A stretch of 64,000 bases of DNA from Candidatus Poribacteria bacterium (GTDB lineage Bacteria > Poribacteria > WGA-4E > WGA-3G): assembly GCA_022827625.1 (NCBI GenBank), contig JAJEIE010000023.1, positions 1 through 64,000 of the forward strand, given 5' to 3'. The notes beneath the pieces were generated by a model that saw only the letters and a list, made by a program, of their open reading frames with translations, was not told the DNA's origin and did not search any database. How positions within the stretch are numbered: position 1 is the stretch's first letter; every line of letters begins with the position of its first letter. Below are positions 53,709-57,096 of the stretch, piece by piece. The position numbers were made by a program, and so were the translations under genes.

Positions 53709-53825
53709 TTAGCTGAGGTTGTGTCGACGACATACTTCTGCTTGTGAACTTTCACCGCTAAGTGCCTCAAGAACAACTCTGCCTTTAAACTCGGGGGTGA
53801 AGGTTCTTCGTTTACGTTTCGCCAT
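53709..53825 (-). pseudogene. IS3-type orfA (transposase) stub
   Basis: ATG at 53825 with AAAGGAGG upstream begins a 38-codon frame ending in TAA at 53709. It contains the start of an IS3/IS911-type orfA helix-turn-helix: MAKRKRRTFTPEFK, ALSGESSQAE, then CRRHNLS, where an intact protein continues with the rest of the HTH. The stop cuts it there. No orfB is present. A transposase remnant with its translation signals still intact. Confidence 0.75.
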
Positions 53826-53890: not shown

Positions 53891-54161
53891 GGGGGCAGTA
53901 CACGTTCCTCATTCTTACGAACCACGTCCTTACACTCACAATGCGGGCAAATAGGCTTATCGCCCCACCTAATGCGTTCTAATCTAAATGTTCAATACAA
54001 CTTTCTTGGTCAGGAAAACGCTCCATGACTTCTATGAGGTTCATAAAAAACTCCCTTGTATTTCAAAAGGAGTTGCTTTAATCCTGCAATTTTTGCTATA
54101 ATAACAGGAACCAAAGTGAAAAGCAACTCCGCTTTTTACCAATAAGGAAGTTCCCGCCCCC
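53891..54161 (-). mobile_element. Internally deleted IS1595-type element (non-autonomous remnant)
   Basis: The ends read GGGGGCAGT (53891 on) and, inverted, GGGGGCGGG (from 54161). Inside, on the minus strand, are a promoter-like TTGCTT-17-TATTAT, a GGGAG site and the first ~42 codons of an IS1595-type transposase, which then run directly into the far terminal repeat, so almost the whole transposase is deleted. An inverted repeat AAGGAGTTGCTTT / AAAGCAACTCC (about 54060-54130) lies in its leader. No target duplication could be confirmed. Confidence 0.6.
53900..54044 (-). pseudogene. IS1595-family transposase fragment, frameshifted
   Basis: From ATG 54044 the frame reads NLIEVMERFPDQESCIEHL, then a stop. 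A duplicated TCTAA (53978-53987) shifts the frame. Past it, in the next frame, come ERIRWGDKPICPHCECKDVV and RKNEE, the zinc-ribbon region of IS1595/IS1016 transposases (C-P-H-C). The catalytic DDE/N region is missing. Confidence 0.75.
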
Positions 54162-54280
54162 TATTAACTACCTATATTATAGCACATTCTAACGAAGCAA
54201 ATTAAGGAAAAACCTACTATTTACAAGGGTTCATCGCACTTTTTCAAAAATTATTTTCCATTCCAAAACGATTTATTGCG

Positions 54281-54431
54281 GGGTGTGTAAAGTTTTCGTC
54301 ACTGGACGTAGGGGCGGGGTCTCCCCGCCTGATTCAGAAGCATTATTTGGGCGAGGGGACCTCGCCCCTACGAGGTCAGATGTAGTTTTCTCACATTCGG
54401 AAGTTAACTATGACAAAATATTTACACACCC
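54281..54431. mobile_element. MITE, 151 bp, with 9-bp target-site duplication and nested REP pair
   Basis: Perfect 11-bp terminal inverted repeats GGGTGTGTAAA (54281-54291; reversed at 54421-54431), extending to 18 matches of 21. They are flanked on both sides by the identical 9-mer TTTATTGCG (54272-54280 and 54432-54440). Inside, CGTAGGGGCGGGGTCTCCCC (from 54307) and its near-complement ending at 54372 form a second palindrome. No coding capacity. The duplication length and GGG-starting ends fit an IS256-like parent, but none is in the window. Confidence 0.88.
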
Positions 54432-54447
54432 TTTATTGCGAAAACAT

Positions 54448-54477
54448 TTGACTTTTAGGTGTGTTTTGTGGTATAAT
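54448..54477 (+). promoter_or_regulatory. Promoter of tnpB
   Basis: TTGACT (54448-54453), 18 bases, TATAAT (54472-54477). The MITE and its target duplication end 8 bases upstream of the -35 box. Confidence 0.6.
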
Positions 54478-54578
54478 TACTATTACGCGTGGGTGAGGAC
54501 TTCTTAACTACCTGCATAGGTAGCCTCCTCACCAACCGACTTAAGAAGCGGTTAAAGCGCGTACGCGGACACCACAAA

Positions 54579-55670
54579 ATGGCATTAAAATCACATAAGA
54601 TTGCGTTACGTCCGAGCGATGCCCAAAAGACTTGGTTTGCACAGCAGTGCGGTTATGCACGCTTCGCTTTCAATGCTGCATTATCCGACTTCAAAGCAGG
54701 ATTGGATGAGGACGATTGGCGTTCTTTCATAGACCTTAACAACCGATTTAACACATCGAAAAAGGCGTTTGACTGGACGAAAGGTATGGATCAACGCGCT
54801 GCGTTGTATGGTATCAAAAACCTATCAGAAGGCATCATTCGTTGGAAAAACAAGATCAGTCGCTTTCCCAGATTCAAGAAACGCGGGTGTAAACAATCTT
54901 ACTCTACAGACGAACAGGCAGTAAAGGTAGAAGGCAAACGTATCAAATTACCCAAAATCGGTTGGGTCAAGATGTTTCAAGAACTCCGTTTTGAGGGGGA
55001 GCTCATAAGGGTTACAATCTCAAGGACTGCACATCGTTGGTTTGTAAGCATCACTATTGACACAGGATTACCTAATGTTCCACGTGACACTCGTGGACTC
55101 CCTGCTGTCGGCGTTGATGTGGGTATCAATAGTTTAGCAACCCTTGATAACGGAAAGCAGTATGAGAACCCAAGACCGCTGCAACGGTATGAGCGGAAAC
55201 TTGCCAGGGAACAACGTAAGCTAAGCCGTAAGGTTTTTCGTTCTAACAACTGGTATAAACAAAAGCGGGTTGTAGAGAAACTGTATTATCGGATTGCTTG
55301 TATCCGCAATGATGCACACCATCAAGCGACGACAGCGATTGTTAAGTCTGCATCGGTTATTGGCATTGAGAAGCTTAAGGTTACCAACTTGCTAAAAAAT
55401 AAGCGGTTGGCAAAAGCCTTATCCGATTCTGCATTAGGTGGGTTTCTTTCAAAACTCAAGACGAAAACCGATACGCTTGGGATTCCGGTTATCCAGGCCC
55501 CACAGTTTTTTGCGAGTAGTAAAACCTGCAGCCGTTGCGGGTATGTTAAAGACGAGTTGTTATTATCGGAGCGCACCTATCATTGCGAATGGTGTAATAC
55601 GAAAATAGGTAGAGACCAGAACGCTGCGATAAATCTTAAGAACTTCGCCGTGGGCTACACGGAGAAGTAA
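54579..55670 (+). CDS. tnpB: RNA-guided endonuclease TnpB
   Basis: 363 residues from ATG 54579; reading further in would add 30 residues translated from the left-end hairpin, which is unlikely. Typical length for TnpB. N-terminal YARFAFNAAL (~27-36) and the HTH/WED region with RFPRFKKRG (~92-100). RuvC residues are all present: D180 (GVDVG), E264 (GIEKL) and D346 (RDQNAA). The zinc ribbon is C317/C320 and C336/C339. With its omega RNA it should cut DNA next to the element's target motif, helping the transposon persist. No tnpA: mobility would depend on a transposase elsewhere. Confidence 0.93.
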   Translation: MALKSHKIALRPSDAQKTWFAQQCGYARFAFNAALSDFKAGLDEDDWRSFIDLNNRFNTSKKAFDWTKGMDQRAALYGIKNLSEGIIRWKNKISRFPRFKKRGCKQSYSTDEQAVKVEGKRIKLPKIGWVKMFQELRFEGELIRVTISRTAHRWFVSITIDTGLPNVPRDTRGLPAVGVDVGINSLATLDNGKQYENPRPLQRYERKLAREQRKLSRKVFRSNNWYKQKRVVEKLYYRIACIRNDAHHQATTAIVKSASVIGIEKLKVTNLLKNKRLAKALSDSALGGFLSKLKTKTDTLGIPVIQAPQFFASSKTCSRCGYVKDELLLSERTYHCEWCNTKIGRDQNAAINLKNFAVGYTEK

Positions 55671-55760
55671 AACGCTTGTGGAGTTTGTGTAAGTCCTCCA
55701 CTTGCGGGAGGCTACGAATGAAGAAGCAAGAAGCCCATGACTTCAGGCATGGGAGTATCA
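55560..55760 (+). ncRNA. Omega (reRNA) guide-scaffold RNA of TnpB
   Basis: By analogy with characterised TnpB systems, the RNA scaffold spans the 3' end of tnpB and the right end. Two stems are seen after the stop: CCTCC (55695-55699) / GGAGG (55707-55711) and CCCATG / CATGGG (55734-55753). The guide would be the ~16-20 bases just beyond the right end (from about 55761, beginning CCACATCG). The 5' boundary is approximate. Confidence 0.6.
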
Positions 55761-56140
55761 CCACATCGTTTGAAAGACCTTACAGACCCGTAGATCTGAA
55801 TACATCATTAACAAAAGCATTTCCACTCGTGTCAATGGCTGAAAAACTCATGGAAGAAGCCACGTCCGCGACATCAGGGAGAGCCGCGTTGACATTAGCC
55901 CGCGGGGATGAATTGACTATTCTCCTAACCGCCATGAAATCGGAAGTTACACTTGAGGAGCATTCAGCACCCGCGGCCGCTACCGTCATTCTGCTCAGTG
56001 GAAACATTATATTTACAACAAGTAACGACAAAATAACGCTCGCACAAGGCGATAGCGTTACCTTCACAGCCGACATCCCTCACAGTGTCCACGCCAGTGA
56101 AGATAGTGCGTTCCTTATCGTAATTGGCGGCAGCAGCTAA
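55718..56140 (+). CDS. Cupin-domain protein whose start codon lies inside the IS right end
   Basis: 140 residues from ATG 55718, which has GGGAGG six bases upstream; both lie within the transposon right end. The first ~15 codons (MKKQEAHDFRHG...) are transposon sequence, then the frame runs on through ITTSFERPYRPVD into a single cupin barrel (TLARGDELTILLTAM, LEEHSAPAAATVILLSGNII, ITLAQGDSVTFTADIPHSV). The first motif keeps the EEHS and the second a His in IPHSVHA. ATG 55834 (MAEKLMEE) or GTG 55828 may be the ancestral starts. Thus the insertion seems to have replaced the gene's 5' end. Function unknown; a metal-dependent small-molecule cupin is likely. Confidence 0.7.
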   Translation: MKKQEAHDFRHGSITTSFERPYRPVDLNTSLTKAFPLVSMAEKLMEEATSATSGRAALTLARGDELTILLTAMKSEVTLEEHSAPAAATVILLSGNIIFTTSNDKITLAQGDSVTFTADIPHSVHASEDSAFLIVIGGSS

Positions 56141-56172
56141 GTAGGAGAAAGATAATACCGGTTGGTAAAAGG

Positions 56173-57096
56173 ATGGCGCATACGAATAAACACAACTCAG
56201 AATCTCGGAAGGGTGGAACTCAGACGAGTGCGTTCGGCACCCCTGGAAGAATCAATCACGATGCCAGTGAATTTTACGGGAGCAGACTTTACGCCGATCA
56301 GGAAATTCCCGAACCCGATACGTGGACAGAAAACCCAATCCCCGTCAAAAATCTCAACCAACTTTATTGTGCGTCCAGCGTAGAGATGTCCAAAATTCCT
56401 GATGCGAGTATCCATCTGATGGTCACGTCTCCGCCGTACAACGCTAAAAAAGAGTACGACGAGGACCTATCCCTCGCAGAATATAGGGAACTTCTCTACA
56501 CTGTTTTCGCTGAAACCTACAAAAAATTGGTTACGGGTGGTAGGGCATGCATTAATATCGCCAACTTAGGGCGGAAACCCTATATCCCGTTGCACAGTTA
56601 CATCATAGAAGATATGTTAGCGATAGGCTACCACATGCGGGGTGAAATCATCTGGGACAAAGCCTCAAGTGCTGGCAGTTCAACAGCGTGGGGAAGTTGG
56701 TTATCGGCAGCGAACCCTGTGCTGAGAGATGTTCACGAATACATCCTCGTTTTCTCCAAAGGCGCCTTCTCACGAAAACGCAACACAAAAGAAAATTCAA
56801 TCCGCAAAGAGGATTTTTTAGAGTGGACAAAAAGCGTCTGGACTTTCCCGTCCGTCTCAGCGAAACGCATCGGTCATCCCGCCCCGTTTCCTGAGGAGCT
56901 TCCGCATCGGCTCATTCAACTCTATACTTTCGTCGGGGATGTCGTCCTGGATCCGTTCTGTGGGAGCGGTACAACGTGCTTGAGTGCCTTGAAGTCGCGG
57001 CGACACTATATCGGATACGACATTGAGGAGAGTTATATCGAATTGGCAACAGAGAGAATTAAAGCATACACGAATCAGACCCGATTACCAATATAA
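56173..57096 (+). CDS. Orphan site-specific DNA methyltransferase (TSPPY type)
   Basis: 307 residues. Catalytic motif IV TSPPYN (~88-93) comes before motif I DPFCGSGTTCLSALKSRRHYIGYD (~260-283, in two blocks), the beta-class permuted order of N4-cytosine and many N6-adenine MTases. A target-recognition region lies in between (~140-235). ATG at 56173, with AAAGG almost touching it and a GTAGGAGAAAG about 25 bases upstream. No restriction endonuclease is seen on either side (cupin upstream, ankyrin protein downstream), so an epigenetic or protective orphan is likely. Confidence 0.88.
   Translation: MAHTNKHNSESRKGGTQTSAFGTPGRINHDASEFYGSRLYADQEIPEPDTWTENPIPVKNLNQLYCASSVEMSKIPDASIHLMVTSPPYNAKKEYDEDLSLAEYRELLYTVFAETYKKLVTGGRACINIANLGRKPYIPLHSYIIEDMLAIGYHMRGEIIWDKASSAGSSTAWGSWLSAANPVLRDVHEYILVFSKGAFSRKRNTKENSIRKEDFLEWTKSVWTFPSVSAKRIGHPAPFPEELPHRLIQLYTFVGDVVLDPFCGSGTTCLSALKSRRHYIGYDIEESYIELATERIKAYTNQTRLPI

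Follow-up and report, generated by a model that had tools for sequence, protein, structure and literature searches.

A family of TnpB elements in Poribacteria that appears to replace the start codons of the genes it enters

Introduction

TnpB elements of the IS200/IS605 family, such as ISDra2 and the IS1341-type variants, encode a protein with a RuvC domain and a zinc ribbon, carry subterminal hairpins, insert on the 3' side of an AT-rich pentamer, which they do not duplicate, and use their right end (RE) as the scaffold of a guide RNA (PMC8612924, PMC10278001). Here we describe an element of this kind whose RE abuts a cupin gene in a stretch of 64,000 nucleotides from Candidatus Poribacteria bacterium (positions 1 to 64,000 of contig JAJEIE010000023.1, assembly GCA_022827625.1; "the window"). 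Unlike the known members of IS200/IS605, the Poribacteria family to which it belongs has a target motif, ATGAA or TTGAA, that coincides with start codons, an RE that contains a Shine-Dalgarno (SD) sequence and a frame-matched start, and a distribution in which most sampled insertions lie on gene starts. On comparative grounds we consider it very probable that this family inserts behind ATGAA or TTGAA and that its RE gives the interrupted gene an SD sequence and a start codon in the correct frame.

Several other described systems resemble this one in part. IStrons, which combine a group I intron with an insertion sequence, likewise make an insertion into a gene tolerable (PMC4227781), but they splice out of the RNA, whereas the elements described here replace the start codon and would give the protein an element-encoded N-terminus; no Rfam intron match was found in 54000-56300. 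PATEs are terminal-only derivatives of IS605-type elements (PMC3119063), and the Poribacteria family also includes short copies with ends and without tnpB (for example L131, about 283 bp), although these, unlike PATEs, keep a start-supplying RE in frame with genes. Finally, the nuclease-dead TnpB regulators termed TldR (mentioned in PMC13418256) are a further case of a TnpB relative whose RNA could act on an adjoining host gene; the window TnpB differs from TldR in that it keeps the acidic RuvC residues and is still a transposon. In the open-access literature searched, we found no earlier description of start-codon-replacing TnpB elements.

Results

A right-end start codon in frame with a cupin gene

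In the RE of the window element, GGGAGG is followed after a 6-nt spacer by an ATG (55718-55720), and the frame opened by this codon crosses the RE (MKKQEAHDFRHGSIT) with no stop codon and continues as the cupin sequence T-SFERPYRP.... The closest relatives, which are Poribacteria metagenome-assembled genomes (MAGs), carry the cupin gene within the same flanking DNA and free of the element. Their protein reads MNT-SFERPYRP..., and the gene has its own SD sequence and starts with ATGAACACATCG or ATGAACACATCGTTTGAAAGACC, in the arrangement SD-ATGAA|CACATCG. Homology between the window and these element-free relatives ends at about 53711 and is regained at 55762, at CACATCG, which means that the native SD sequence and ATGAA have been lost and that the start is supplied by the RE. 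In related elements the RE tip reads TCA followed by A or C, and the corresponding position in the window is 55760/55761. The first 23 native cupin codons show mostly synonymous change, pointing to purifying selection on the N-terminus. At the level of DNA comparison, these data confirm that the RE of a TnpB element has replaced the native cupin start. The original prediction, made from the window by itself, had placed the GGGAGG and ATG of the RE in frame with the cupin gene and had proposed that the insertion created a new 5' end; the stop-free frame bears out the former, and the relatives, whose genes start at the insertion point, agree with the latter. The outcome named as refuting the prediction included relatives starting at ATG 55834, and none of them does: all begin at the insertion point.

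In-frame fusion is a property of the family

DNA and covariance-model searches of relatives yielded 120 right-end loci. Among recognised copies, the left outer border is ATGAA or TTGAA in 25 of 26 and ATGGA in one; the search pattern for this border favours (A/T)TGAA, and a broader listing agrees. The distance from the RE start codon to the tip is 44 nt in the majority of copies, with one subfamily at 50 nt. Both lengths leave a remainder of 2 modulo 3, as does the 5-nt ATGAA, and an element landing on a start codon therefore always fuses in frame.

The tips of the distant RE copies lie beyond the end of the model, and of these copies only those ending in TCA entered the statistics. For 49 distinct insertions whose RE has both ATG and SD, the RE frame extends at least 100 codons into the host gene in 38 cases, compared with 1 and 3 cases for the other two frames, and it is the longest of the three frames in 44 (p = 2.7e-16 against an expectation of one third). 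Where the RE lacks start or SD, a long frame follows in only 3 of 21 cases (Fisher's test against the ATG+SD copies, 1.7e-6). A first set of copies gave a similar picture, a long in-frame gene following the RE in 37 of 43. Of the 390 WTGAA motifs in the window, no more than 4.6% (18) are start codons, and 50 are intergenic. In-frame fusion lies far above chance across the family.

Outside Poribacteria, where other phyla were lightly sampled, the strict RE pattern had a single match, in MAG G154. We rejected this locus (L298) as a non-Poribacteria occurrence because its flank is that of the Poribacteria locus L128, which makes contamination likely. Viral contigs held distant TnpB relatives only.

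Host genes behind the right end

The genes found behind an RE leader are diverse, and NCBIfam and Pfam matches begin at the first model positions for TsaD, LeuC, HrpB, ThiO, a nucleotide-sugar dehydrogenase, a sulfatase, a Gfo/Idh/MocA protein and others, and at model position 6 for PyrE. In the window's own genome, a lipid A acyltransferase gene also lies behind an RE. The start of this same gene carries an RE of the 50-nt type in one species and of the 44-nt type in two others (L171, L241, L242), and it looks, judging by the two RE types, like a site of repeated insertion.

TsaD has one match in its genome (G010, on one contig), as does LeuC in G001. Most TsaD orthologues begin ATGAAAATACT or ATGAAGATACT. 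At the LeuC locus, joining the left flank, ...gatATGAA, to the right flank, AAAAACGATGTACG, recreates the uninterrupted start of the orthologue L315, with synonymous differences further on, and the joined flanks match L310 and L314 exactly over the junction. This exact empty site indicates insertion 3' of the motif without target duplication. Six insertions are common to two species and have the same RE in both, so that later changes in the host genes arose with the element present; their pooled ratio of nonsynonymous to synonymous change (dN/dS) is 0.14 (156 changes, p = 3e-31). PyrE, which is one of the six, gives 0.55 by itself, although with 9 changes there is little data. The fusion is also kept where tnpB is truncated or missing, TsaD included (L127, L154, L156, L163). 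From these patterns, the interrupted host genes, some of them essential, can apparently still be translated.

The right end as a structured RNA

The RE has a conserved fold of the omega-RNA type, and its transcript may be a guide RNA; this fold places both GGAGG and AUG within stems. Of 43 copies of the ATG type, 41 have GGAGG, as do 2 of 8 others. ATG-less copies have the same fold, with stems that contain AAGG or GAGG, and ACG at the position of AUG, where a G-C pair stands in place of the G-U pair of the ATG copies. Since the fold is kept in these copies, it does not need SD or ATG, which favours selection for the start. The window leader by itself was no more stable than shuffled sequences.

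By analogy with ISDra2, the guide would consist of the first native cupin bases, and this stretch (55762-55777) is identical to the uninterrupted allele behind ATGAA in L006 and L029. As the expected guide has the sequence of the empty allele, TnpB might target alleles that lack the element, a role already proposed for ISDra2 (PMC8612924).

The window element and its left side

The element is an IS200/IS605-family, tnpB-only member of the IS1341-type variant. Its TnpB matches ISDra2 TnpB (PDB match) over residues 5-357 with the acidic RuvC positions kept, and a TTGAC...TATAAT arrangement like that of its promoter occurs in related copies of the element. The left end of related elements consists of the motif ATGAA, then GGGnnTTnnCTAACAATCCCA, then a hairpin, and no left end of this type was found for the window element; thus, of the two subterminal hairpins, the RE hairpin is present and that of the left end, found in relatives, is lost. 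It follows that 54448, which the original prediction took as the beginning of the element, is not the transposon end but belongs to the tnpB promoter, at its -35 box. With the left end, the left junction at the cupin gene has also gone, and the target motif is unreadable from the left flank of the window. By these features, the window copy is probably immobile. An element of this type would be moved by a Y1 transposase, here acting in trans; the genome contains two full Y1 transposase genes, at loci that lack the ends of the element.

In related copies, the displaced native ATGAA enters the element as a short frame, which often ends at codon 6 (ATG AAG GGA CTC CCT TAA; for example L145, L146 and L131).

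Remnants of other elements lie further to the left in the window. The start of an HTH_Tnp_1 transposase gene (MAKRKRRTFTPEFKGRVVLEALSGE..., 53715-53825, minus strand), probably of an IS3-type element, stands at the point beyond which the window no longer resembles its relatives, and an IS1595-type transposase remnant (53904-54160, minus strand) has a broken frame, its Pfam match being read across the break. A sequence resembling a miniature inverted-repeat transposable element (MITE) separates these remnants from the TnpB element (Table 1). Rfam gave only weak microRNA matches, below gathering scores, on a GC-rich hairpin within this insert, and we rejected them.

Table 1. Features of the window element and its surroundings
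Feature	Position	Strand	Basis and remarks
MITE-like insert between remnants and element	54280..54431	.	8-bp duplication TTTATTGC on both sides; ends GGGGTGTGTAAA...TTTACACACCC
tnpB promoter, TTGACT-18-TATAAT, TG before -10	54448..54477	+	11 of 12 consensus positions; consensus match, not proof
tnpB, 363 aa, full length	54579..55670	+	Pfam OrfB_IS605, Cas12f1-like_TNB, HTH_OrfB_IS605
Right end; 3' part of presumed omega-RNA scaffold	55657..55761	+	47-sequence alignment, consensus fold, covariance-model match
GGGAGG, SD-like	55706..55711	+	Sequence; pairs with CCTCC 55695-55699 in predicted fold
RE ATG and 44-nt frame-matched leader (MKKQEAHDFRHGSI + 2 nt)	55718..55761	+	Open frame; 44 nt also in most copies
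Subterminal hairpin CCCATG...CATGGG	55734..55753	+	Sequence; conserved fold
Expected 16-nt guide (CACATCGTTTGAAAGA), first native cupin bases	55762..55777	+	By analogy with ISDra2 reRNA (PMC8612924)
Native cupin part (Cupin_2)	55762..56140	+	Pfam; homology to relatives from 55762; with RE leader 55718-56140

Discussion

The mechanism that we propose begins with insertion 3' of ATGAA or TTGAA, which is often a start codon and the two bases that follow it. The host protein would lose one or two residues from its native N-terminus and gain about 14 element-encoded residues, with ribosomes initiating at the ATG of the RE on an mRNA that may come from the tnpB promoter or from the host operon. Such a start would have been selected because it makes these insertions tolerable, and the RE would then be retained as the start of the gene despite decay of tnpB or of the left end, as seems to be the case in the window. 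More tentatively, and with confidence that falls a little short of an even chance, we suggest that this lineage is specialised on start codons: its motif would be the start context itself, its RE would have evolved as a replacement ribosome site, start and leader, and the element would settle even in essential genes and make the host dependent on the RE. In addition, because the guide scaffold and the leader are the same RNA, TnpB may tune the host gene.

A simpler account, which we think possible if rather doubtful, invokes survivorship only. SD and ATG would have arisen as by-products of folding in the omega RNA, with the phase match due to luck; the element would hit any WTGAA, insertions on start codons would persist, and the start would be used without ever having been selected in the element. 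The position of SD and AUG within conserved stems is in line with this account, and a host that depends on the start would be expected to keep the RE, copies of which do outlast the loss of tnpB. However, the ATG-less copies maintain the fold without needing SD or ATG, and the second spacing of 50 nt preserves the phase, both of which speak against this account. It is unlikely that the arrangement is a regulatory device, in line with the regulation idea of the original prediction, with expression of the gene behind the leader controlled through blocking or cleavage of that leader by scaffold-bound TnpB or in the course of guide maturation. Such a device would fit a stretch of about 120 nt in which scaffold, leader, start and guide overlap, and also the finding that TnpB turns its own mRNA into omega RNA (PMC10278001), but the host genes have no common function, and the survival of the fusion beside truncated or absent TnpB means that regulation is not the general reason for it. 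For the cupin gene itself, our data speak neither for nor against regulation by TnpB or its guide RNA. We regard as highly improbable the view that the fused genes are defunct or decaying and that agreement of frame is a coincidence of the window: apart from the harm that insertions at gene starts do in general, nothing argues for it, and it is already contradicted by the 38 in-frame cases among 49, by the pooled dN/dS after insertion, by single-copy TsaD and LeuC and by the conserved N-terminus of the cupin.

Several points weigh against our main reading. The case is built on sequence comparison, and if the ATG-type RE arose only once, its phase match could be luck. The genomes are MAGs, so that "single copy" hinges on their completeness (95% for G010), and 6 of the 43 copies in the first set have no long in-frame gene downstream. 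In the window copy, loss of the left end leaves no target motif of its own to be read. Moreover, the SD sequence is base-paired in the predicted scaffold, which may hinder initiation.

The original prediction was partly supported. The presumed scaffold, the leader and the coding start do overlap, and the cupin gene's own first bases, found behind ATGAA in two relatives, occupy the position at which the ISDra2 analogy would place the guide; the overlap is a family-wide feature and not one coincidence, and the family rule, insertion behind ATGAA combined with a frame-matched start, had been missed.

If start replacement operates as we propose, it would represent a non-splicing route by which a transposon can occupy a gene and yet spare it, and the motif targeted by a TnpB element would be tied to gene starts. 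It predicts host proteins with an element-encoded N-terminus, implies that the starts of such genes may be misplaced by gene callers, and would put guide-RNA maturation and translation in conflict on one RNA. Moreover, it would account for the right ends that have outlived tnpB in Poribacteria genomes.
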